From Geobacteraceae bacterium (GTDB taxonomy: Bacteria > Desulfobacterota > Desulfuromonadia > Geobacterales > DSM-12255), in contig JACABD010000006.1 of assembly GCA_013377075.1 (NCBI GenBank), forward strand, positions 59,450 to 99,059: a stretch of DNA of 39,610 bases. Reading direction: 5' to 3'. Below the pieces are notes generated by a model. It had not been told where the DNA came from. It saw only the letters and a list, made by a program, of their open reading frames with translations, and did no database searches. Below, in pieces: positions 1,267-16,326 of this stretch. Every line of letters starts with the position of its first letter. The stretch's first letter is position 1. Both the position numbers and the translations under genes were made by a program.

Positions 1267-2319
1267 TTGCGAGTTCTTATCGTAAAGACATCTGCACTGG
1301 GTGATATAATCCATGCCCTTCCTGTACTTGACTATCTCCATCAGGTAGTCTCCGGCATAGAGGTTGACTGGGTGGTTGAGGAGCGTTTTGTCGATATCCT
1401 TTCCGGAAATCCGCTTGTCAGCCAGTTATTCACCGTAGATACGAAAAAGTGGCGCAAGAAGCTACTTTCCCCTGTGACATGGCGTGAAATCTCCTCTCTC
1501 AGGCAGCAGCTTGAGGCTCGTCGCTACAGTATTGTCTTTGATATTCAGGGGAATTTCAAGAGCGGTCTGATTGCAAAGTTCTCCGGTTGCAGCAGGAGAT
1601 ACGGATTTGATGCAGAAGCGGTGCGAGAGAGTCTAAATCTTAAATTCACTACTAATCAGGTTCCTCTGCGCAGACAGGACTATCACGTAACAGACCGCTC
1701 CTTAAGGGTTGTCAGTGTTCCTTTTGGCAAGGATTACTCTGCTCTCAAGCTGGGTAGCGACATCGTCACTGATTCTGAAGAAGATCAGTCTGCGGAGCTT
1801 TTTCTGGCGACCTTGAATGACGGACTGGTATTTCTATTTCATCCAGGGACAACCTGGGTTACCAAACTCTGGCACGAGAGTGGTTGGATTGCGCTTGGCA
1901 AGGAGCTTACGGATAAGTTCCCTGAAAGTACAATCCTTATCTCCTCAGGGGGAGGGGAGGAAAAGCAGGTTGCCGAAAATATCAAAAGTGGCATCGGTCG
2001 TCAGACCAGACTCTTGCCACAACTCTCTATCAAAGGGTTTACTGCGATAATCAAGAAAGTTGACCTGATGTTTGGCGGTGATACCGGACCGATACATCTT
2101 GCTGCCGCAGTCGCTACGCCGACGGTCTCTTTTTATCGTGCAACCGATGGCAAACGAAACGGTCCCAGGGGAGATATTCATAGAATTGTACAGTCGCCAC
2201 TACCATGTACAAAATGCCTTCTCAAGCAGTGTGGCAAGGATCAAAGCTGCCGAGAGAGTATTGACGTGAATGAGATGCTTGGGGCGGCAGAGGAGCTTTT
2301 GCTTTCCGATGGCAGGTAA
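1267..2319 (+). CDS. waaC: Lipopolysaccharide heptosyltransferase I (WaaC, GT9)
   Basis: GT9 enzymes transfer L-glycero-D-manno-heptose from the ADP-sugar; WaaC adds the first heptose to Kdo of the inner core on the cytoplasmic side. The 350-residue protein has the N-terminal KTSALGDIIHALP motif at residues 7-19 and the C-terminal nucleotide-binding motif GGDTGPIHLAAA with Asp at about 272. A cysteine cluster, CTKC...C...C, follows near the C-terminus. The start is TTG at 1267, directly after the stop of the preceding gene, so translation is probably coupled. The downstream GT9 gene overlaps by 11 bases. WaaC rather than WaaF is inferred from the S-A-L-G-D-I-I-H pattern. Confidence 0.87.
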   Translation: MRVLIVKTSALGDIIHALPVLDYLHQVVSGIEVDWVVEERFVDILSGNPLVSQLFTVDTKKWRKKLLSPVTWREISSLRQQLEARRYSIVFDIQGNFKSGLIAKFSGCSRRYGFDAEAVRESLNLKFTTNQVPLRRQDYHVTDRSLRVVSVPFGKDYSALKLGSDIVTDSEEDQSAELFLATLNDGLVFLFHPGTTWVTKLWHESGWIALGKELTDKFPESTILISSGGGEEKQVAENIKSGIGRQTRLLPQLSIKGFTAIIKKVDLMFGGDTGPIHLAAAVATPTVSFYRATDGKRNGPRGDIHRIVQSPLPCTKCLLKQCGKDQSCRESIDVNEMLGAAEELLLSDGR

Positions 2320-3397
2320 TCAGAAAAAAATACTGGTGCTTCGCTACCGTTTCATCGGCGATACCATCCTTACTATTCCATTTTTGCGTAATCTCCGTTA
2401 TGCCGAACCCGGTGCCCATATTGCCTGGGTTGTTGCGCCAGGCTCATCAGATGTAGTTGCCGGCATCCCCTATGTGGATGAGCTTATATACTGGGATCCG
2501 GTGACTATACATGCTGACAGCAGAGGGACACACAGGACTTTTGCAGATAAACTCGGATTTGTCAGGGGGTTGCGGGAAAGGCATTTTGATAAGGCATATG
2601 TGCTAAAACGCTCACTCGGCAGCGCTATCCTTGCCCTTCTTGGCGGTGCGAAGGAGAGGATAGGTTTTGCATCTGAAGGTAGAAGTCTGCTTTTGACAAA
2701 AACAGTCCCTTATCGGCATGACCGGCATGAAGTGCAGAACTTTCTTGATGTTCTAAGAGCTGATGGAGTGCCGGTTGTTGACGACTATCTTGAGGCATGG
2801 ATCACCAGGGAAGAAGAGCTTTTTGCTGAGAAATTTTATGCTGATGCCGGTGTGAAGCCGGGTGAAACCTTGATCGGCATTCACCCCTTTGCCGCCAATG
2901 CACCAAGGGCATGGCATCTGGATAATTTTATCGAACTTGCAAACCGGCTGCAAAGCGTAGTCAAGTGCCGTGTCGTCTTTTTCGGCGGACCCAAGGACAG
3001 TGAAGCTGCTGCCAGATTGGCGGATGAAGTAACGCCAAAACCGGTTCTGGCTATAGGCAAAACAACTCTCAGGGAGTCAATGGCTCTCTTGAAGCGGCTC
3101 AAGCTGCTTGTCTGTAATGACAGCGGCATCATGCATCTGGCTGCTTCGCTGCAGGTGCCGCTGGTGGCGCTTTTCGGGCCCCAGTCACCGGTAAAGTTTG
3201 GCCCATGGGGTGACAAGTGTCTGGTGTTGTACAGTAAATTCCCGTGCAGTCCGTGCAGGCAGAAATTCTTTACTGAGTGCAAGCCGTCAGGCAGAGGGAC
3301 ACCGGAGTGTATGGAATTTATCACTACTGATCTAGTGCTGAACGATATCGGTTCTTTACTCAAATGGCAGAGCCCTGAGGAAGTGGTGCTCGGGTGA
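2309..3397 (+). CDS. GT9 heptosyltransferase, WaaF-like
   Basis: This is a 362-residue ADP-heptose:LPS heptosyltransferase family protein. It has the N-terminal motif RYRFIGDTILTIPFLRNL, the C-terminal motif NDSGIMHLAAS, and the tail cysteine pattern CSPC...C...C. I chose ATG 2309, because the protein then begins MAGNQKKILVLRYRF as GT9 proteins do; the open frame extends 13 codons further upstream inside waaC but gives an atypical leader. It overlaps waaC by 11 bases, and its stop overlaps the next GTG start by four. It probably adds heptose II or a later heptose. The exact acceptor cannot be told from sequence. Confidence 0.85.
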   Translation: MAGNQKKILVLRYRFIGDTILTIPFLRNLRYAEPGAHIAWVVAPGSSDVVAGIPYVDELIYWDPVTIHADSRGTHRTFADKLGFVRGLRERHFDKAYVLKRSLGSAILALLGGAKERIGFASEGRSLLLTKTVPYRHDRHEVQNFLDVLRADGVPVVDDYLEAWITREEELFAEKFYADAGVKPGETLIGIHPFAANAPRAWHLDNFIELANRLQSVVKCRVVFFGGPKDSEAAARLADEVTPKPVLAIGKTTLRESMALLKRLKLLVCNDSGIMHLAASLQVPLVALFGPQSPVKFGPWGDKCLVLYSKFPCSPCRQKFFTECKPSGRGTPECMEFITTDLVLNDIGSLLKWQSPEEVVLG

Positions 3398-5523: not shown

Positions 5524-6567
5524 ATGAGCAGTAAGATCAAAACAATCGGTTTTTGGAATTATCATGAAGGCTTGAACGCTAATCGAATGTTCCGTGATGC
5601 CAATGTTTCGATTGGCGACGACCTCCTGTTGCCTATTATGGAATTGGGTAAATATCTGCATAGCAGGAATATCAAGGTAGCGACAATAGATATGTTGGAA
5701 CCGGAAACGATTGATGCATATCTCTTTATTGATGTGCCAAACCCTTCCAATCCTTACGTGAAAGCAGCCTTTAATTCGGGGAAACCTCTTTACCTTCTTG
5801 CCCTGGAAAGTCCACTGGTGCGGCCGGAAAGTATTGACTCTTCAAAGCATGATCGTTACACGAAAGTTTTCACCTATTATGATGTTTTGGTTGACGATCG
5901 TAAATACATAAAGATCAACTATTCATTTTCCATACCTCAATCTATACCTGTAGGTATGAAGCACAAAGAAAAACTCTGTGTAACCATTGCTGGTAATAAG
6001 AAACCACGTAAGCAGGGTGACTTTACTGAGCTTTATTCTGAGCGGCTTCGGGCGATCCGCTGGTTTGAAAATAATCATCCTGATGATTTCGATCTGTACG
6101 GCTTTGGCTGGGGGAAGCCGCAACTAAAATTGTCGCGGGTGCTCAATCCGTTCTGGCTATTAAAAATTCTGCGGGCTCCTTACTATTCGACTTACCGGGG
6201 AACAGTAGAAAGAAAGAAACCAGTACTGGCGAAATACAAATATTCCTTATGTTATGAAAATGTGCTTGATGTCCCGGGTTATATAACAGAAAAAATCTTT
6301 GACTGCTTTTTTGCCGGAACTGTTCCAATCTATCTTGGCGCTGGCAATATTAGTGAATATATTCCTGAAAGCTGCTTTATCGATAAACGGAACTTCGATA
6401 GCTACGAGTCACTCTATTCGTTCATGACTAACGTTACAGATGCTGATTATCATCAATATCTTGTCAATATCAGGGATTTTCTTGTGAGTGACAAGGTAAA
6501 GGTTTTTAGCTGTAATGATTTCGTTAAAGTGATCTCTGACAATATATTGTTATCGCTGAAAGGCTAA
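5524..6567 (+). CDS. GT10-family alpha-1,3-fucosyltransferase-like protein
   Basis: The 347-residue protein carries the hallmark C-terminal GT10 block: YKYSLCYENV, then GYITEKIFDCFFAGTVPIYLG from about residue 252, then an IPESCFID segment. This block binds GDP-fucose in known fucosyltransferases. The N-terminal half is variable, as in the family. ATG 5524 follows a GGTGG at 5516-5520. A 95-base gap separates it from the GT2 gene. No GDP-fucose synthesis genes (gmd, fcl) are in this window, so the donor must come from elsewhere or the enzyme uses another GDP sugar. Family assignment is firm; sugar specificity is inferred. Confidence 0.82.
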   Translation: MSSKIKTIGFWNYHEGLNANRMFRDANVSIGDDLLLPIMELGKYLHSRNIKVATIDMLEPETIDAYLFIDVPNPSNPYVKAAFNSGKPLYLLALESPLVRPESIDSSKHDRYTKVFTYYDVLVDDRKYIKINYSFSIPQSIPVGMKHKEKLCVTIAGNKKPRKQGDFTELYSERLRAIRWFENNHPDDFDLYGFGWGKPQLKLSRVLNPFWLLKILRAPYYSTYRGTVERKKPVLAKYKYSLCYENVLDVPGYITEKIFDCFFAGTVPIYLGAGNISEYIPESCFIDKRNFDSYESLYSFMTNVTDADYHQYLVNIRDFLVSDKVKVFSCNDFVKVISDNILLSLKG

Positions 6568-6671: not shown

Positions 6672-7808
6672 ATGAACTTGATAAACAAAATGGTATTTGT
6701 GATAAAAACTGATAACCAAATTTCAATAAACTCTCTGTTAGTCATCGAACCTAACCTGCGCACGTCAAGTGGTCACTATGCAGATTTTGTAAAGGCTCTT
6801 GGTAGCCGACTGCCCGCGGATTCTTTAGAAGTATTTGCTCACCCTGATGCTGATGTGATGCTTGAAGAGATGCACGGCGTTCGAGTCTGCAAGTCATCGC
6901 CACGAACAGGTGATATGTTTTCTGAATGGCTCACTATAAACTCCAGCGTATCTAAAGAGCAGTCCTTTCTTATTCTTACAGCAGATAATCGTCATGCTGC
7001 CGCTGCCTCATTTGCTTCTCGCTTCTCCGGGAAAAATCCAGTCAGCGCCAATTTCTTTTTTCACCGCGCACCTACAACCTGGCGAGACAATCTGCTACAG
7101 CCACTTACTGCAATTACTCGCGAATATTCACAAGCAATTACATCAACCGAGATGGTAGCTGATTCTTTAAAAGCTCTTGGTTGGAGAAGGGTTGAGTATG
7201 TCCCTTACCCTGTGTTGCCGCCTGATTTATTACCTGATCCCCGTCTGTTTTCTCATCTTTTGATGGCTGGTGCAGCAAGGCTCAATAAGGGTCTTGATCT
7301 TGTAGCAGACCTTGCCAGTAAATGGGCAGGTGAGGGGAGAAATATACCACTTCTGGTGCAGGTGTCTAAAAAACATCGCTCCAGACATGGCAGAAGAGAG
7401 TCTCAGTATGTGGAAAAGCTCCTTTCTTCAGGGTACATTGGGCTTCATACTGATGAAATCTCTCCTTGCAGGGCGGATTATCTTGAACGATTCAAAGGAG
7501 CTCTGGTTTTAGCCCCTTATGAGCGTGAGCAGTTTTCCAGTCAGGTCAGTGGTGTTATTCTTGATGCCCTACTTAATGGAGCACCGGTAATTGCTACAAA
7601 AGGTACTTGGTCTGCAATTCAGGTTCAGCGCTTCGGAGCCGGGATTACCATTGCGGAGCGTTCAATTTCTGCACTGGAGATAGCCATAGATACTATTTTG
7701 GCTGATTGGAGTTCTTATTCGCAAAGAGCTTGTGAAGCCTCTAAAACTCTAGCTTTAGAGCATGACCCTATTAATCTTGCTAACCTGCTGGGATTGAACA
7801 ATGAATGA
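6672..7808 (+). CDS. Glycosyltransferase, GT4-like
   Basis: The 378-residue protein has a GT-B layout. An N-terminal LLVIEPNLRTSSGHYADF segment is followed by a HRAPTTWRD region, then MAGAARLNKGLDLVADLA as the start of the C-terminal domain, and LAPYEREQFSSQVSGVILD near the nucleotide-sugar site. The usual E-x7-E motif is not clean, so the family call is weaker than for its neighbours. No clear ribosome binding site precedes ATG 6672. ATG 6690 (residue 7) is an alternative. A 104-base AT-rich gap lies upstream. The end overlaps the next GT9 gene by eight bases, which places it in the same surface-glycan operon. Confidence 0.68.
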   Translation: MNLINKMVFVIKTDNQISINSLLVIEPNLRTSSGHYADFVKALGSRLPADSLEVFAHPDADVMLEEMHGVRVCKSSPRTGDMFSEWLTINSSVSKEQSFLILTADNRHAAAASFASRFSGKNPVSANFFFHRAPTTWRDNLLQPLTAITREYSQAITSTEMVADSLKALGWRRVEYVPYPVLPPDLLPDPRLFSHLLMAGAARLNKGLDLVADLASKWAGEGRNIPLLVQVSKKHRSRHGRRESQYVEKLLSSGYIGLHTDEISPCRADYLERFKGALVLAPYEREQFSSQVSGVILDALLNGAPVIATKGTWSAIQVQRFGAGITIAERSISALEIAIDTILADWSSYSQRACEASKTLALEHDPINLANLLGLNNE

Positions 7809-8817
7809 TACCCCTTCAAGAATCCTTATAATAAAGCCTGGCGCAATTGGTGACCTCCTTCACATCACTCCAGTAATTCGGGCATTGAAGGGGTTCGCTC
7901 CTGATGCTGCCATAACGGTTATGGTAGGCTCAAAAATTACTAAATCACTCTTTAACGATAATCCTATGGTTAATGATGTCATTGTCTTTGATAAAAAAGG
8001 TGAACATCGAAAATGGTTGAATCTGTTTGCGCTATGGAAAAAAATTCGTGATGCAAGATACGATCTTGTTCTCAATTACCAGCGTAGCAATCTTAAAGGT
8101 TGGTTTCTGGTTACAGCTGCGTTTCCGTGCCGCGTTCTTGTCTATCATAAGCTGCGCCACAGGGTAATCCATGCAATTGAAGATCACCTGAGGCCACTTG
8201 AGCTACTTGGTGTTGATCCTTTTACCTATGATAAAAGCCTTGATTTCTTCCCATCTACCCAGGATGAGGCGTTTGCTGACAATTTTATAAGGGTGAATAA
8301 TCTTTATACAAAAAAAATTGTTGCATTCAATCCGGGTACGAGTCATGCCTCAAAGTGTTGGCCCATAGAGCGCTTTATTGAACTTGGAAATGCCATAGCA
8401 GCTGATTTCGGATGTGAAATTCTTCTTCTTGGAAGTCCTGCTGAGAAGGAATTGACCGATACTATAAGCAAAGGGATGCAGTTCCCAGTCCATGATCTCT
8501 GTGGCTGTTCACTTGGCGAGTCAGCTGCAGTTTTGAAGCGATGTGAACTTCTGGTTACCGGCGATACCGGCCCTATGCATATTGCTACTGCCGTCAATGT
8601 GAGAGTGCTGGCTCTGTATGGCCCGATAAGTCCTGTCCGGAGCGGCCCTGTTGGTGATGGCAACAGGATTGTCATGCATGAAGAGCTGGATTGCTGTCCT
8701 TGTAATAGTTTTAATTGTAAAAATAATCATTTCCGTCTCTGTATGGAACTGATAACCGTTGAAGAAGTGAAGCAGGCGCTGGCTGAAATGCTGACGTTAA
8801 ATAACAACGAGGTCTGA
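7801..8817 (+). CDS. GT9 heptosyltransferase family protein
   Basis: This is the third GT9 enzyme in the locus, 338 residues. It has the N-terminal IIKPGAIGDLLHITPVIRAL motif, a mid-protein FNPGTSHASKCWP segment in the heptosyltransferase pattern, and the nucleotide-binding motif GDTGPMHIATA. A C-terminal cysteine cluster (CCPC...C...C) matches those of the two other GT9 proteins here. ATG 7801 overlaps the preceding glycosyltransferase by eight bases. It may add a third heptose or a related sugar to the core. The precise acceptor is not visible. Confidence 0.85.
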   Translation: MNDTPSRILIIKPGAIGDLLHITPVIRALKGFAPDAAITVMVGSKITKSLFNDNPMVNDVIVFDKKGEHRKWLNLFALWKKIRDARYDLVLNYQRSNLKGWFLVTAAFPCRVLVYHKLRHRVIHAIEDHLRPLELLGVDPFTYDKSLDFFPSTQDEAFADNFIRVNNLYTKKIVAFNPGTSHASKCWPIERFIELGNAIAADFGCEILLLGSPAEKELTDTISKGMQFPVHDLCGCSLGESAAVLKRCELLVTGDTGPMHIATAVNVRVLALYGPISPVRSGPVGDGNRIVMHEELDCCPCNSFNCKNNHFRLCMELITVEEVKQALAEMLTLNNNEV

Positions 8818-8821
8818 ATTA

Positions 8822-9427
8822 ATGCATGTAGATGAACTGAATCTTGCTGCTCTTGCCGAATCTTTTGATAGATGTATAACCTTCTGGCACAACGATCCTG
8901 AAGATCATGCTCTTTGCCGTAGTGAGCTGAGCTTGCTTGCTTTTGATCTTGCGTGGGAAAACTACTCACTCTGGCACGAGGAGGACAAGGCAAGACGTAC
9001 GGATGTTAACGATAGCCTTATCGCCCTTGTAAAGCGCAACATTGACCGCTTTAACCAACAGCGAAATGATCTTATAGAGCGCCTTGATGAGGCGATTCTC
9101 GGCTGGCTTGTTCAAAAGACTGAGTTTGCTGATGATCTTCCGATCAATTCTGAGACTCCAGGTAGTATTGTTGATCGAATCTCGATCATGAGCCTCAAGG
9201 TTTATCACATGTATGAAGATACATTGCGTGATGATATTAATGATGAACATCGTCAAAAGTCCCTGCATAAACTTGCTGTGCTTCGCGAACAGAGATCTGA
9301 CCTGGAATCTGCTCTACATCTGCTTCTTGATGATTACCTGGTTGGTAGAAAAAAAATGAAGATATATCGTCAGTTCAAGATGTATAACGATCCGACATTG
9401 AATCCTGAGATGTACAGGCAAAAGTGA
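8822..9427 (+). CDS. DUF4254 domain protein
   Basis: The 201-residue protein looks cytoplasmic, with no signal peptide or membrane segment. It matches my memory of the DUF4254 family: a helical N-terminal half with LIALVKRNIDRFNQQRNDLIE, and the conserved central block SETPGSIVDRISIMSLKVYHM at about residues 108-130. The C-terminal third is charged and probably helical. It starts four bases after the upstream GT9 gene, so it belongs to the glycan operon. No enzymatic role is established for the family as far as I know. The context suggests a part in LPS core or surface glycan assembly. Confidence 0.78.
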   Translation: MHVDELNLAALAESFDRCITFWHNDPEDHALCRSELSLLAFDLAWENYSLWHEEDKARRTDVNDSLIALVKRNIDRFNQQRNDLIERLDEAILGWLVQKTEFADDLPINSETPGSIVDRISIMSLKVYHMYEDTLRDDINDEHRQKSLHKLAVLREQRSDLESALHLLLDDYLVGRKKMKIYRQFKMYNDPTLNPEMYRQK

Positions 9428-11144: not shown

Positions 11145-11879
11145 ATGAAAATTCCCGTTCTTTTTTACCATCATGTAAATAGCCATTCTGGAGATACGGT
11201 CACGGTTACAACAGAAAACTTTGCCTCCCAGATTGAGTACCTCTATAGTGAAGGGTACGAGTCTATCTCTGCGGATCAGCTCATGCGCTTTATTGCCGGA
11301 GAATATACGCCGTCTGGCAAAGTTGTTCTAATTACCTTTGACGACGGCTGGCTTGATAACTACTTTAATGCCATTCCGATACTAAAACGCTACAGTTTCA
11401 ATGCCACGTTCTTTCTGATAACAGGCAGGGTCAATGCTGTAGTCTCATCTACGTTTCGAAACCTGTCACCTGACCATGAGATCTGCAAAAAGCTCGTCAA
11501 CAGTGGCAGGGCAGGTGATGTTGCAATCGGCTGGGGTCTTGCGAAGGAACTTGATAAAGACAATCTGTTCGATTTTTATTCCCATACCGTAAGTCATCGC
11601 CACTGTGTGACTCTAAAAGCGGACGAACTGATATTTGAACTTGAAGAGTCAAAGAGAAAGCTTGAAGAGCAGCTTGGCAGGCCATGTGACTATCTTTGCT
11701 GGCCTTACGGGAGCTTCAATCAATCCGCTCTGGAATGTGCGGCGCAAATAGGGTATAAAGGTACATTTTCAACAATAGACGGCTTCTGCACAAGAGGCTC
11801 TGACCCGTTTCTTGTTAACAGGATTGAGGTCAGGGACTCCCTTGAGTGGTTTAAGAGCCGTCTTTCAGCGGAGAGTTGA
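11145..11879 (+). CDS. Polysaccharide deacetylase (NodB/CE4 family)
   Basis: The 244-residue protein has the CE4 NodB-homology motifs. ITFDDG carries the catalytic and metal-binding aspartates at about residues 66-67, and HTVSH carries the two metal-binding histidines at about 147 and 151. A C-terminal CWPYGSFN segment follows, as in the family. The start MKIPVLFYHHV at ATG 11145 is the standard opening; an open frame extends upstream into the ArnT-like gene but reads as its shadow. No signal peptide is evident, so it may act in the cytoplasm on a lipid-linked or nucleotide-linked N-acetyl sugar. Its stop shares one base with the next start (TGATG). Confidence 0.88.
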   Translation: MKIPVLFYHHVNSHSGDTVTVTTENFASQIEYLYSEGYESISADQLMRFIAGEYTPSGKVVLITFDDGWLDNYFNAIPILKRYSFNATFFLITGRVNAVVSSTFRNLSPDHEICKKLVNSGRAGDVAIGWGLAKELDKDNLFDFYSHTVSHRHCVTLKADELIFELEESKRKLEEQLGRPCDYLCWPYGSFNQSALECAAQIGYKGTFSTIDGFCTRGSDPFLVNRIEVRDSLEWFKSRLSAES

Positions 11880-12889
11880 TGAACAGGGTTCTGGTGACCG
11901 GCGCTGCCGGATTTATAGGGTTTCATCTCTCTAAGAGGCTTCTGTCAGATGGCTTTCAGGTTGTTGCCATTGATAATCTGAATGATTATTACGATCCGTC
12001 ACTTAAAAAAGCACGTCTTTCGATACTTGAGAGTTCCGACCGGTTCTCTTTCAATCTGATTGATATATCTGACAGGTTGGCAATGGCGGATTTTTTCGCT
12101 AAAAACAGCTTTGACGCCGTTCTCCATATGGCTGCCCAGGCTGGAGTCAGATATTCGCTCGTAAATCCCCATGTATATGCTGATAGTAACCTGACAGGCT
12201 TTCTGAATGTTCTGGAGGGATGCAGAAATTCCGGCACCGGGCATCTTGTCTATGCTTCTTCCAGTTCTGTTTACGGTGCAAACACCACCATGCCGTTTTC
12301 CGTTCACCAGAATGTTGATCACCCCCTGTCACTCTATGCTGCGACAAAAAAGGCCAATGAGCTCATGGCTCACACCTATTCTGCTCTCTACGGCATTCCC
12401 ACAACCGGGCTGCGTTTCTTTACTGTCTATGGGCCTTGGGGGAGACCTGATATGGCGCTTTTCCTCTTCACACGTGCCATACTCGAAGGTAAACCGATTG
12501 ATATTTTCAATAACGGTATGATGGAGCGGGATTTTACCTATGTTGACGATATTGTCGAAGGTATAGTCAGGGTGATGATGCAGCCTGCCACACCTGATCC
12601 TGCCTGGAGCTCTGCTGCGCCTGATTCGTCAAGTGCCGCTGCCCCATACAGAATCTACAATATAGGTAACAGCAAGCCTGTTCAGCTGACCCGCTTCATA
12701 GAGCTGCTCGAAAAGGCTATTGGCAAAAAAGCTTTTAAAAATCTTCTGCCGATGCAGCCTGGAGATCTACCCTCAACTTATGCCGATATATCCGAATTAT
12801 CGGATGCTATTGGATTCTCACCTGATACGCCCCTTGAAACGGGGGTTGCCAGGTTTGTTGAGTGGTATCGGCAGTATTATAAAGTCTAG
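11879..12889 (+). CDS. NAD-dependent sugar epimerase, UDP-glucuronate 4-epimerase-like
   Basis: This is a 336-residue extended short-chain dehydrogenase. The NAD motif TGAAGFIGFHL is at about residues 7-17, and the catalytic Tyr-x3-Lys is YAATK at about 153-157. The segment GLRFFTVYGPWGRPDMA is typical of UDP-glucuronate/galacturonate 4-epimerases, as is FNNGMMERDFTYVDDIVEG. ATG 11879 overlaps the previous stop by one base. A low-complexity Ala/Ser/Pro-rich insert lies near residues 238-258, in front of YRIYNIGNSKPV. It probably supplies UDP-galacturonate for the LPS core. Substrate is inferred from motif resemblance. Confidence 0.88.
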   Translation: MNRVLVTGAAGFIGFHLSKRLLSDGFQVVAIDNLNDYYDPSLKKARLSILESSDRFSFNLIDISDRLAMADFFAKNSFDAVLHMAAQAGVRYSLVNPHVYADSNLTGFLNVLEGCRNSGTGHLVYASSSSVYGANTTMPFSVHQNVDHPLSLYAATKKANELMAHTYSALYGIPTTGLRFFTVYGPWGRPDMALFLFTRAILEGKPIDIFNNGMMERDFTYVDDIVEGIVRVMMQPATPDPAWSSAAPDSSSAAAPYRIYNIGNSKPVQLTRFIELLEKAIGKKAFKNLLPMQPGDLPSTYADISELSDAIGFSPDTPLETGVARFVEWYRQYYKV

Positions 12890-12900
12890 GAGTCGGGGTT

Positions 12901-13851
12901 ATGGTTGGTAAAATGTCGGACTTCTCACAGGTTAAGACCTATCCTTTGAAGGAACGCGCGAATAAGATGGTCTTTTCGAAAGACTCTGCCAAGCCTGTAA
13001 CAAAGGGTATGAGTGTAAGCGATCTTCTTGCTGCAATGCCTGCACAGCTTGGTGCAGAGGCTTTTATCAAGATCATTGACGCTGTTGTTGCCGCAAAAGA
13101 GAAGGGTAAGCCGGTTGTTATGGCAATTGGCGGTCATGTCATAAAATGTGGATTGCAACCGGTTCTCAAGTCTCTCGTCGATGCCGGGGCTGTGACCGCT
13201 TTTGCCATGAACGGTTCTGTATCGATTCATGACTATGAACTTTCTCTGATAGCTGAGACCAGTGAAGACGTGGGAGCAGTCCTGCATTGCGGCACTTTTG
13301 GCATGGCCGAGGAGACCGGTAGGGATATTAACAGGGCTTTGAGAGAGGGTATTGCCAATGGGCAGGGATATGGTGAGTCGGTCGGCAAATTTATCCTTGA
13401 AAATAATAACCCATACGCCTGTCATAGCCTGCTTGCTCTCTGTGCAGAGCGGAACATTCCGGCAACTGTCCATGTTGCCATTGGTAACGATATTATCCAT
13501 CAGCATCCTGATGCCGACGGCGCAGTAATCGGAGAGGCGTCCTTTCGCGACTTCAGGCTGTTTACGGATGTTGTTAGTAAACTTGGCGATGGCGGTGTCT
13601 ACCTGAATATCGGCAGTGCTGTAATTCTGCCGGAGGTTTTTCTGAAGGCGCTCTCCATTGCCCAGAATCTTGGTTATCATGTTGATAATTTTACCACCGC
13701 AAATTTTGATATGCAGCAGCACTACAGACCGCTCCAGAACGTGGTAAAGCGCCCCACATCGGGCAAGAGCCAGGGGTATACGGTCACAGGTCATCATGAA
13801 ATCATGATTCCACTACTTGCTGCCGGTATTCTGGATAGACTTGGAGAATAG
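12901..13851 (+). CDS. Conserved protein of unknown function upstream of hldE
   Basis: The 316-residue protein looks cytoplasmic, with no membrane segment. ATG 12901 follows an AGGAG at 12888-12892. It contains glycine- and histidine-rich blocks: VMAIGGHVIKCGL, MNGSVSIHDYELSLIAETS, LHCGTFGMAEETG, VAIGNDIIHQHPDADG and YLNIGSAVILPEVFLKAL. These look like an enzyme active site. The HDYELSLIAETSEDV and GMAEETG blocks remind me loosely of deoxyhypusine-synthase-like proteins, but I cannot confirm that and do not assign it. It lies between a nucleotide-sugar epimerase and hldE and ends four bases before the hldE start, which suggests a link with heptose or core sugar supply. Confidence 0.72.
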   Translation: MVGKMSDFSQVKTYPLKERANKMVFSKDSAKPVTKGMSVSDLLAAMPAQLGAEAFIKIIDAVVAAKEKGKPVVMAIGGHVIKCGLQPVLKSLVDAGAVTAFAMNGSVSIHDYELSLIAETSEDVGAVLHCGTFGMAEETGRDINRALREGIANGQGYGESVGKFILENNNPYACHSLLALCAERNIPATVHVAIGNDIIHQHPDADGAVIGEASFRDFRLFTDVVSKLGDGGVYLNIGSAVILPEVFLKALSIAQNLGYHVDNFTTANFDMQQHYRPLQNVVKRPTSGKSQGYTVTGHHEIMIPLLAAGILDRLGE

Positions 13852-13855
13852 AGGA

Positions 13856-15325
13856 ATGGAGAGAAGAAAAATTGAGCGGCTTTTTGCAGGGGCTAGGCAG
13901 ATAAAGGTACTGGTCATCGGTGATCTGATGCTTGATGAATATCTCTGGGGTAAAACCGATAGAATCTCGCCAGAAGCTCCGGTGCAGGTTGTTGATGTGC
14001 TGCGGGAGGACGTTCGACTTGGTGGGGCAGGTAACGTGGTCAGTAATCTTGCTGCCCTTGGTGCGGCGGTTTCTGTTTGTAGTGTTATTGGTGATGACGA
14101 TAATGGTGCGCTATTACGAAGCACCTTTAATGATCTGAATGTCGGCACTGATGGGCTGTTTGCAGACTTGAACAGAAGAACCGGCAAAAAAACCAGGGTG
14201 ATGGCGTCCCACCAGCAGATTGTCAGGATAGACCGTGAGACCAAGGATGCTTTGCATCCGGAATTCGAGATCATGCTTATCAACTGGCTCCAGGCAAATA
14301 TCTGCAATTATCATGTTTTAGTAGTCTCCGATTACCTTAAGGGTGTTTTGACACCTGCTATCCTTGAAACTATTATTACTCTTGGAAAAAGTTCCAGCAT
14401 CCCGGTGGTTGTTGATCCGAAGGGGAGCGACTACTCCAAATATTGCGGTGCAACCATCCTTACCCCCAACCGCAAGGAGGCTGAGCAGGCTTCTGCCATT
14501 GCCATAAATGATGAGGCATCGCTAAATCTGGCTGCGGCAAAACTGCTTGAGTCTCTGAAACTCTCCGCCCTGCTTATCACAAGAAGCGAAGCCGGAATGT
14601 CTCTTTTTAGACCATCCGCAGACCCGCTGCATATACCGACCGTTGCCCGTGAGGTCTATGATGTGACCGGCGCAGGGGATACGGTGCTTGCGCTCCTTAG
14701 CCTCGGGCTTGCTTCAGGCTTGTCGCTGGATGACTCATCTAAGCTTGCCAACACTGCTGCTGGTATTGTAGTCGGCAAACTTGGCACTTCGACCCTAAAA
14801 CCTGCCGAGATTCTGGATGAGATCGGACGTAGCCTCTACGGTGGTGATAGCAAAATCAAATCCCTCGATGCCCTTACAGAAATAATTGTTGCTGAAAAAG
14901 CCAGGGGTAAAAGGGTCGTTTTTACAAACGGCTGTTTTGACCTTCTCCATGCCGGTCATGTCAAATATCTGCAAAAGGCCAGATCTCTCGGTGATCTGCT
15001 TGTTTTGGGGCTGAACAGTGATGCTTCGGTAAGGCGGCTTAAAGGTGAGAAAAGGCCACTCATCTCCGAAGACGAACGGGCACATATTCTTGCTGCACTT
15101 GACTGCATTGACCATGTAGTGATTTTTGATGAGGATACGCCATTGACAGTTATCGAAAGGCTTAAGCCTTTTATCCTGGCAAAGGGTGGCGATTACACTC
15201 TGGAAGGGGTTGTCGGTCGCGAGATTGTCGAAGCTGAAGGTGGCCGGGTCGAGTTGGTGCAGTTTGTTGACGGCAAGTCTACCACCAACATAATTGAAAA
15301 GATTCTTGAGAGTTACGGAGAATGA
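13856..15325 (+). CDS. hldE: Bifunctional heptose-7-phosphate kinase / heptose-1-phosphate adenylyltransferase HldE
   Basis: HldE performs two steps of ADP-heptose synthesis for the LPS inner core. The 489-residue protein has an N-terminal PfkB-type sugar kinase with GDLMLDEYLWG at residues 22-32, LGGAGNV at 55-61 and the anion-hole/catalytic motif DVTGAGDTVLALL. The C-terminal nucleotidyltransferase has TNGCFDLLHAGHVKYL, with HAGH at about 365-368. Both domains are intact. I chose ATG 13856, preceded by a GGAG at 13843-13846, over an upstream in-frame start inside the previous gene. The stop overlaps the galE start by four bases (ATGA). Confidence 0.95.
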   Translation: MERRKIERLFAGARQIKVLVIGDLMLDEYLWGKTDRISPEAPVQVVDVLREDVRLGGAGNVVSNLAALGAAVSVCSVIGDDDNGALLRSTFNDLNVGTDGLFADLNRRTGKKTRVMASHQQIVRIDRETKDALHPEFEIMLINWLQANICNYHVLVVSDYLKGVLTPAILETIITLGKSSSIPVVVDPKGSDYSKYCGATILTPNRKEAEQASAIAINDEASLNLAAAKLLESLKLSALLITRSEAGMSLFRPSADPLHIPTVAREVYDVTGAGDTVLALLSLGLASGLSLDDSSKLANTAAGIVVGKLGTSTLKPAEILDEIGRSLYGGDSKIKSLDALTEIIVAEKARGKRVVFTNGCFDLLHAGHVKYLQKARSLGDLLVLGLNSDASVRRLKGEKRPLISEDERAHILAALDCIDHVVIFDEDTPLTVIERLKPFILAKGGDYTLEGVVGREIVEAEGGRVELVQFVDGKSTTNIIEKILESYGE

Positions 15326-16326
15326 TATTGAAAAATCGTGTTCTTGTTACCGGCGGCTGCGGCTACATCGGCAGTCATGTTGTCAGACAGCTTTCCGAGG
15401 CAGGTTATGAGGTAATTGTCTTTGACAATCTCTCCACAGGATTTGCTGATGTCCTGATCAACGGCGAGAAACTGATAGTCGGCGATCTTCAGGATGCTGG
15501 AGTATTGGATCAGCTTTTTTCCGAGTATGGATTCAAGACCGTTCTCCATTTTGCGGCAGCCATCATTGCACCTGAGTCGGTTTCGCTACCGCTCAAGTAT
15601 TACACCAATAATACTAGAAACACGCTTAATCTTCTCCAGGTTTGTAATAAATATGCCGTTGAAAAGTTTATCTTCTCAAGCACAGCAGCTGTATACGGCA
15701 TTCCACAAGGTGGAACAGCTTCCGAAGAGTCTCCAACCGTTCCAATTAACCCATACGGCACTTCAAAACTGATGAGTGAATGGATGCTCAGGGATACTGC
15801 TGCAGCATCGACAATGAAGTATGTGGCACTGCGTTACTTCAATGTTGCCGGTGCTGATCCGCAAGCCCGCATGGGGCAAAGAACAAAAGATGCTACTCAT
15901 CTTATCAAGGTTGCTTGCCAGGCTGCGCTGGGTATGCGTGACTCGGTTGAAGTTTTTGGTTCTGACTATGAAACCAGTGACGGAACCGGGATTCGAGACT
16001 ATATTCATATCGAAGATCTTGCTGCAGCCCATCTGGCGGCACTCTCTTATCTTGAAAAAGGTGGCGACTCCACTGCCGTCAATGTCGGCTACGGCACTGG
16101 CTCTACAGTCCGTGAAGTCATTGCTGTTGTGAAAAGGGTTAGTGGTGTTGATTTCAAGGTTATTGAATCGCCTCGAAGACCTGGTGATCCGGCTACACTT
16201 GTTGCTGTAGCTGACAGAGCCAGAACGGTTCTGGGCTGCAATTACCGTTTCGACAATCTTGAAACAATCGTCAGTGATGCATGGCGCTGGGAGCATAAGC
16301 TTTACACAGGGGGAATAAATGCTTAG
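15322..16326 (+). CDS. galE: UDP-glucose 4-epimerase GalE
   Basis: The 334-residue NAD-dependent epimerase interconverts UDP-glucose and UDP-galactose (possibly also the N-acetyl forms). It shows VTGGCGYIGSHVV at residues 8-20, FDNLSTG, and the catalytic YGTSK with Tyr at about 145 and Lys at 149. RYFNVAGAD and GTGIRDYIHIEDLA complete the GalE pattern. It overlaps hldE by four bases and yicC by eight, so it bridges the glycan operon and the nucleotide/stringent-response genes. This arrangement suggests readthrough from the LPS genes into yicC-gmk-rpoZ. Confidence 0.94.
   Translation: MILKNRVLVTGGCGYIGSHVVRQLSEAGYEVIVFDNLSTGFADVLINGEKLIVGDLQDAGVLDQLFSEYGFKTVLHFAAAIIAPESVSLPLKYYTNNTRNTLNLLQVCNKYAVEKFIFSSTAAVYGIPQGGTASEESPTVPINPYGTSKLMSEWMLRDTAAASTMKYVALRYFNVAGADPQARMGQRTKDATHLIKVACQAALGMRDSVEVFGSDYETSDGTGIRDYIHIEDLAAAHLAALSYLEKGGDSTAVNVGYGTGSTVREVIAVVKRVSGVDFKVIESPRRPGDPATLVAVADRARTVLGCNYRFDNLETIVSDAWRWEHKLYTGGINA

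Follow-up and report, generated by a model that had tools for sequence, protein, structure and literature searches.

A GSU2086-family protein encoded next to hldE is a candidate replacement for the heptose epimerase HldD

Introduction

Heptose is the foundation of the inner core of lipopolysaccharide (LPS). In the textbook pathway it is made in the order GmhA, HldE kinase, GmhB, HldE adenylyltransferase and HldD. HldD, a short-chain dehydrogenase/reductase (SDR) of the GalE type, inverts C6'' of ADP-heptose by means of a bound nicotinamide cofactor, with no net redox change.

In a 39,610-nucleotide stretch of a Geobacteraceae genome (here called the window), a gene for a protein of no named function lies directly in front of hldE. 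Two key questions about this gene are: (i) what kind of protein it encodes; and (ii) whether that protein supplies a step of the heptose pathway and, if so, which one.

Results

The gene and its surroundings

The gene occupies positions 12901-13851 of the window; it and all other features described here lie on the plus strand. It starts with ATG and runs through 316 intact codons, as judged from the list of open reading frames and the sequence, and AGGAG at 12888-12892, 8 bases 5′ of the start codon, is a probable ribosome-binding site. The open reading frame, the profile NF052581, an AlphaFold model and a fold search together point to a 316-residue GSU2086-family protein, predicted to be an NAD-dependent heptose-pathway enzyme with a DHS/LOR-SDH fold. 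After a gap of 4 bases (13852-13855) comes hldE (13856-15325), whose frame is open from the ATG at 13856 and which encodes the bifunctional heptose-7-phosphate kinase/heptose-1-phosphate adenylyltransferase (NF008454, 527 bits against a cut-off of 521, with both domain models above cut-off). Upstream is a gene for an extended-SDR sugar epimerase (11876-12889), labelled UDP-glucuronate-epimerase-like in a preliminary description of this DNA. Its product scores 103.9 bits against the HldD model, for which the cut-off is 274.6, and among the 25 NCBIfam models listed for it none is over its cut-off. With the last base of the epimerase-like gene at 12889 and the hldE start codon at 13856, the preliminary description was right to place the gene between the two and four bases before hldE.

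The gene lies inside a same-strand run that leads from lpxK through three GT9 heptosyltransferase-like genes to galE, yicC, gmk and relA. The LPS-core cluster of the window opens with lpxK, for the lipid A 4′-kinase (15-1112; TIGR00682, 239 bits, cut-off 92). The GT9 genes are an LPS heptosyltransferase I-like gene, whose product would use ADP-heptose (1267-2319; TIGR02193, 218 bits, cut-off 185), a second at 2270-3397 (PF01075, 147.7 bits; TIGR02195, 134.4 bits against a cut-off of 134.6) and a third at 7801-8817 (Pfam PF01075, 124.7 bits, with NCBIfam models below cut-off). Behind hldE, galE (15322-16326) matches TIGR01179 at 445 bits (cut-off 262). The cluster also holds a GT10 (fucosyltransferase-like) gene at 5524-6567 and, at 6672-7808, a gene for a 378-residue protein that matches neither NCBIfam (at E 1e-10) nor Pfam (at E 0.001). 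A DUF4254 protein is encoded at 8822-9427, directly 3′ of the third GT9 gene, and the same pair occurs in a second locus of our study, L090.

Family assignment

The protein matches the NCBIfam model NF052581 at 419.2 bits (cut-off 250) over model positions 3-300 of 301. This is its own family, the GSU2086 family, which carries no function in NCBIfam, in agreement with the preliminary description of a conserved protein without a named function. A literature search found neither activity data for the family nor an earlier proposal that it replaces HldD, and in a full-text search of 5.39 million open papers GSU2086 was mentioned in PMC5585712 alone.

Its own genome holds a single copy, free of internal stops, and 29 of 38 near-relative genomes (the source genome counted) have matches. 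We conclude that 12901-13851 is a genuine gene rather than a chance open reading frame, because the single intact copy and the near relatives are joined by 118 of 277 genomes of the class, 242 of 395 of the phylum and 50 invariant residues. As to reach beyond the phylum, a contig scan with six exact peptide patterns gave 58 loci (L030-L087), whose titles, where they name a group, name Desulfuromonadales-type bacteria, unplaced Deltaproteobacteria or Desulfobulbaceae. A plasmid collection yielded two records with family members, one of them from Chloroflexota.

Other profiles give little. Nothing in Pfam is over its cut-off, no SDR model of Pfam or NCBIfam matches, and the HldD model TIGR02197 gives no match up to E 1. 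The likeness to deoxyhypusine synthase is weak by sequence (E 0.0043), far under the cut-offs of the relevant models (16.3 of 364 bits for NF002630; 11.9 of 304 for TIGR00321), and the LOR/SDH and ArgZ models are likewise not reached (13.8 of 410.8 bits for TIGR00300; 17.8 of 27 for Pfam PF21570). A phmmer search of PDB sequences with the single protein returned nothing useful, and the family profile found AgrE/ArgZ alone there, at E 0.14-0.15. Profile-profile comparison with hhalign is more informative: against 12 LOR/SDH-like proteins of the same class the probability is 94.6 (E 6.6e-8) over residues 54-119, with a shared HD.E block. Against seven deoxyhypusine synthases it is 25 (E 7.6e-4), a weak match, and human deoxyhypusine synthase as a lone sequence does not match the family.

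Predicted fold and conserved residues

An AlphaFold model built with 73 homologues has a mean pLDDT of 89.8 and a pTM of 0.87; confidence is low at residues 271-290, and below 50 at 274-280. Nearly all of the 50 Foldseek matches listed for this model, at E 8.3e-9 to 2.5e-7, are deoxyhypusine synthases; among solved structures the best fits come from these synthases, from AgrE/ArgZ and from an archaeal LOR/SDH protein. In VIA-align the Pyrococcus deoxyhypusine synthase 7cmc matches over its full length (Z 20.3, rmsd 4.0, 278 residues) and AgrE (6lrh) more tightly over fewer residues (Z 20.8, rmsd 3.1, 210 residues), the two being tied within 1 in Z. With the deoxyhypusine synthases (TIGR00321; PDB 7cmc, 1dhs and 6xxj) the protein has the full-length fold in common, at Z 19-20. 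The best Z belongs to the C-terminal ornithine cyclodeaminase domain of AgrE/ArgZ and to LOR/SDH (TIGR00300; PDB 6lrg, 6juy and 3c2q), which align to residues 49-315 of our protein, and with the C-terminal part alone of those longer chains. A homologous LOR/SDH NAD-binding half is present both by profile (E 6.6e-8) and by predicted fold (Z 20.8).

The preliminary description had called the likeness to deoxyhypusine synthase loose and odd in this context. Loose holds for the sequence; the fold likeness is strong, at a Z of about 20. Nor need it be odd, provided that the two have a catalytic NAD+ fold in common rather than polyamine chemistry. Of the two outcomes that would have refuted the preliminary description, neither appeared: there was no strong match to an unrelated characterised family, and the neighbourhood with hldE is conserved.

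Ornithine cyclodeaminase uses NAD+ without net redox change. Deoxyhypusine synthase oxidises spermidine with NAD+ and regenerates NAD in a final reduction, as set out in PMC7226451. Because these fold relatives use NAD+ without net redox change, binding of NAD by the modelled protein is a well-grounded inference, and from its deoxyhypusine-synthase fold the protein is probably NAD-dependent.

Across 75 homologues, including two that share only about 36% identity with the window protein, 50 positions are invariant, including H79, H110, D111, E113, H191, H200, E245, K249, D270, R276, R284 and H299; five columns are all-His, one all-Lys, three all-Arg and eight all-acid. (Alignment A1 was drawn from a set of 75 sequences from 128 loci, non-redundant at less than 90% identity and 295-335 residues long; it holds 73 of that set and leaves out the truncated L083 and L118, which has no clear start.) The Gly/His/Asp-rich blocks pointed out in the preliminary description are real and contain many of these invariant positions. 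Judged from the sequences, the invariant arginines and histidines of the C-terminal half could bind phosphate.

Deoxyhypusine synthase has a catalytic lysine (Lys329 in the human enzyme), whereas the window family has no conserved equivalent: among the 75 homologues no column in 281-293, ahead of the last helix, is all-Lys, although both the alignment to the human enzyme and the model are weakest at that segment. K289 is found in 19 of the 75; position 283 is K in 62 and R, Q, N, V or S elsewhere. The sole all-Lys column is 249. In the human enzyme spermidine is bound by residues (PMC7226451) that fall where the alignment is weak and have no confident partners in the window protein.

Linkage to gmhA and hldE

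The preliminary description had taken the protein for an unplaced enzyme tied to ADP-heptose synthesis, and the tabulated neighbourhoods bear this out. At 56 of the 58 contig-scan loci gmhA or hldE is within 2.5 kb; hldE lies downstream on the same strand within that distance at 52, and gmhA is directly upstream at 25. For 36 copies from the class (L108-L143, a set that partly overlaps the first in source genomes), the numbers are 32 for hldE downstream, 18 for gmhA directly upstream and 36 for either. Within 2.5 kb downstream, gmhB is found at 17 of the 58 loci and for 19 of the 36 copies. An HldE-kinase match at E <= 1e-30 accompanies the gene in 114 of the 118 genomes of the class that have it. 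Directly 3′ of the gene at 11 of the 58 loci is a small open reading frame (about 122 residues) that looks like a four-helix bundle; its product resembles what we take to be a protein of the 23S-rRNA-intervening-sequence type.

In the wider phylum the arrangement is different. Among the 30 best-scoring of 242 loci, which are not a random sample, gmhA is directly upstream at 25 and hldE was seen within 1.5 kb at none; the gmhA pair adjoins genes that look, by their sequences, like hemC, ispF or argH. Both HldE activities are present nonetheless: in wider-phylum genomes with the GSU2086-family gene and without hldD, the adenylyltransferase (8/8) and the kinase (7/7) are over cut-off, which speaks against the idea that such genomes are missing the rest of the pathway. 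In all seven genomes where both were sought they are at separate places (for the eighth, G516, the adenylyltransferase alone was sought). Because the wider-phylum loci keep gmhA while the kinase and the adenylyltransferase are elsewhere, the deepest neighbour link of the family is to gmhA. One genome of the class, G145, has both a gmhA-GSU2086-hldE module (L129) and a separate gmhA-hldE-gmhB module.

In Geobacter sulfurreducens, the gene table for growth on electrodes in PMC5585712 gives transposon values of -3.1 for hldE (GSU2085), -3.2 for GSU2086 and -3.7 for gmhA (GSU2087). The similar values in that table fit a shared pathway; polar effects inside a single operon are possible.

Alternation with hldD

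A result that goes beyond the preliminary description is that the gene alternates with hldD. Of the 277 genomes of Desulfuromonadia, 118 have a GSU2086-family member over cut-off, 207 an HldE kinase and 91 an HldD. Among the 209 that are hldE-positive at E <= 1e-100 (207 at the curated cut-off), 97 have the GSU2086-family gene without hldD, 74 have hldD without that gene, 10 have both and 28 neither, with HldD matches taken at E <= 1e-70 (all of them over cut-off) and three genomes with gene fragments (G048, G140 and G157) counted as lacking the gene. The other pathway step tabulated in the class, gmhB, served as a control. It is present in 203 of the 209: 93 of the 97 with the gene only, all 74 with hldD only, all 10 with both and 26 of the 28 with neither. 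Alternation is seen with hldD, not with gmhB. In a sample of 395 genomes of the phylum, taken irrespective of hldE, the family is found in 242 and hldD in 86; 224 have the gene only, 68 hldD only, 18 both and 85 neither. For the 378 of these outside the class the corresponding numbers are 219, 64, 16 and 79.

The alternation is visible within a single taxonomic family: L142 (genome G262, without hldD) reads gmhA-GSU2086-hldE, whereas L100 (G032, hldD only) reads gmhA-hldE. By the look of the sequences the flanks are the same, with mreB, a GT2 and a response regulator. L105 (G020) has the L142 arrangement, yet its genome also has hldD.

In 48 hldD-less genomes (the 28 with neither gene and 20 with the GSU2086-family gene only) the best match to the HldD model is 152.5 of 274.6 bits, so that hldD is not merely just under cut-off there. 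Another SDR encoded near hldE was considered as the replacement and rejected: a counterpart of the window's epimerase-like gene is immediately upstream at only 8 of the 58 loci. SDR matches to the HldD model reach E 2e-44 in hldD-less genomes, which leaves room for an unlinked, divergent SDR.

The 28 hldE-positive genomes with neither gene (e.g., L088, L090, L096 and L098) imply either that neither gene is needed wherever hldE is present, or that a third solution exists. Seven are under 90% complete (G051, G130, G140, G170, G243, G265 and G270), and one of these, G140, holds the fragment of a GSU2086-family gene. The 21 more complete ones may use the D-glycero heptose (D-glycero-D-manno-heptose) directly, or may have another, third enzyme.

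Alternation and shared ancestry

Counted over 246 genera of the phylum, 15 have both genes, 147 the GSU2086-family gene only, 37 hldD only and 47 neither (Fisher 1.2e-9; the overlap of 15 was counted by eye from 162 genera with the gene and 52 with hldD). Over about 107 families the numbers are 17, 61, 14 and 15 (p 0.015), where the total presumes that unlisted genomes contribute no further family. Within the class, the genus-level test gives p 0.008 and permutation within families p 0.067.

A tree of the hldE kinase domain, which is not a species tree, was made for 85 genomes: 80 picked by hand so that the genera and all four groups are represented, plus 5 from other loci of the study (the gene alone in 45, hldD alone in 21, both in 7 and neither in 12). 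On it a model of dependent gain and loss is better than independence (LR 14.3, 4 df, p 0.006), and this holds without the 23 of the 80 picked tips in which both strands are open (LR 14.0, p 0.007), the full run having chosen the strand by similarity. In the model hldD is gained almost only where the GSU2086-family gene is absent, and the latter almost only where hldD is present. It is as if the GSU2086-family gene arrived first and hldD was lost afterwards. The dependence of the two genes looks real. It is less overwhelming than the raw counts, because the signal shrinks once relatedness is allowed for (p 0.008, 0.067 and 0.015 in the tests above).

Distant homologues on plasmids

The two plasmid-borne members are 36% identical to the window protein, score 386 and 384 bits against NF052581 (cut-off 250), and pass Pfam PF21570 at 30.3 and 30.0 of 27 bits. 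On plasmid pDCAR1 of Solidesulfovibrio carbinolicus (L207, 10441-13522) the homologue stands with an HldE-like fusion with swapped domains (adenylyltransferase first) and a GmhA-like SIS protein, near NeuB/PseI-like, pseF, transketolase and radical-SAM genes of a nonulosonate-type cluster; the region looks like an undescribed sugar cluster. On the Chloroflexota plasmid (L206, 11152-14582) the company is a HAD hydrolase, an HldE-kinase-like PfkB protein and a GmhA-like SIS protein; a sugar ABC transporter is encoded next to them, and no nucleotidyltransferase was recognised among the five genes scanned. The HldE-like and GmhA-like proteins of both plasmids are all under their own family cut-offs.

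Discussion

We propose that the window protein is an NAD enzyme that replaces HldD and inverts C6 of heptose in lineages without hldD, and we give this proposal a probability of about one half. From a predicted fold and from computed linkage and alternation we infer both the substrate and the epimerisation. The enzyme would hold tightly bound or recycled NAD+. The C6 hydroxyl of the heptose would be oxidised to a ketone, with the hydride passing to NAD+, and the ketone would then be reduced from the other face as the hydride is handed back, with no net redox change. The outcome would be conversion of the D-glycero to the L-glycero heptose at C6 without HldD. The job predicted for the protein is that of HldD, the ADP-glyceromanno-heptose 6-epimerase (TIGR02197), with which it alternates phyletically; unlike HldD, which is an SDR, it has a deoxyhypusine-synthase-like predicted fold, and it may act one or more steps earlier. 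We judge the same inversion to be the simplest account because a fold suited to taking a hydride out and handing it back is combined with alternation with hldD and not with gmhB. At odds with a strict replacement are the 10 genomes of the class and 18 of the phylum that have both genes, as well as the 28 hldE-positive genomes with neither. A literature search for the heptose configuration of the LPS of Geobacter (G. sulfurreducens), or of any strain with the gene and without hldD, found none.

The substrate could be ADP-heptose or a heptose phosphate next to GmhA. We lean slightly to a sugar phosphate, given the link to gmhA, the presence of a second heptose module in G145 and the gene company on the Chloroflexota plasmid. 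The company that the plasmid homologues keep would, by analogy, also favour a substrate at the sugar-phosphate level; to our knowledge Chloroflexota are not expected to make LPS. No residue of the HldE kinase stood out as tracking the presence of the GSU2086-family gene among 85 sequences, which is weak evidence against the sugar-phosphate version and for the ADP-sugar level. A fuller form of the early route is more tentative than the replacement of HldD itself: much of the phylum would make L-glycero-D-manno-heptose by having C6 inverted on heptose or sedoheptulose 7-phosphate by a GmhA-paired NAD enzyme of deoxyhypusine-synthase fold, HldE would activate the inverted sugar, and HldD would be superfluous. 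The module of GmhA-like protein, NAD enzyme and PfkB kinase would also have been put to use for other sugars, with the Chloroflexota plasmid as one such case.

The main rival explanation, which we consider unlikely, is that the enzyme takes the same heptose intermediate as HldD and makes another product from it, such as a different epimer or a heptose that has been oxidised or aminated, so that HldD would be useless or harmful. Any competitor for the intermediate of HldD would fit the alternation, and the plasmid modules, with their under-cut-off HldE- and GmhA-like proteins, may serve other sugars. The neighbours in the window speak for ordinary heptose instead: they are those of an ordinary LPS core, with lpxK and GT9 genes, one heptosyltransferase is over the ordinary heptosyltransferase I cut-off, and elsewhere gmhB follows at 17 of 58 loci and for 19 of 36 copies.

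It is quite improbable that common descent, by accident, accounts for most of the alternation, with the enzyme having another task in the heptose pathway or close to it. Such an accident would agree with the permutation within families of the class (p 0.067) and with the 17 families that hold both genes, of which 12 include at least one genome carrying both and 5 never combine them; against it speak the genus-level test, the tree-based test and the gmhB control.

Equally hard to favour, and in our view improbable, is a protein that is not catalytic for the missing step and works together with GmhA (or HldE), as a partner or as a subunit that tunes activity, the alternation being lineage history. 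Such a role would suit the depth of the gmhA link (25 of the 30 best-scoring phylum loci, with no hldE in 1.5 kb) and a statistical signal that fades under phylogenetic correction. But the 50 invariant residues, with their all-His, all-Lys, all-Arg and all-acid columns, look like an active site, gmhA occurs without the GSU2086-family gene in hldD-only loci such as L100, and the dependence persists on the hldE tree, which counts against a mere partner of GmhA. Nothing was seen in favour of a mere regulator, a role that the preliminary description had also considered. A true deoxyhypusine- or homospermidine-synthase-like enzyme, acting on polyamines or on a lysine of HldE or another protein, is very improbable despite the full-length fold match to 7cmc, since the family scores far under the cut-offs (16.3 of 364 and 11.9 of 304 bits), has no conserved lysine at the catalytic position (K289 in 19 of 75; all-Lys at 249 only) and has heptose genes as its nameable neighbours.

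Finally, we note what the replacement of HldD by the GSU2086 family would mean. HldD is the last step of the textbook pathway, yet 224 of the 395 sampled genomes of the phylum have the GSU2086-family gene and no hldD over cut-off. ADP-heptose has been described as a signal detected by host cells. If the proposal is true, a widespread enzyme of a basic pathway has so far been overlooked, and a fold known from polyamine and amino-acid chemistry would gain a sugar reaction. A family named by a locus tag alone would then become annotatable.
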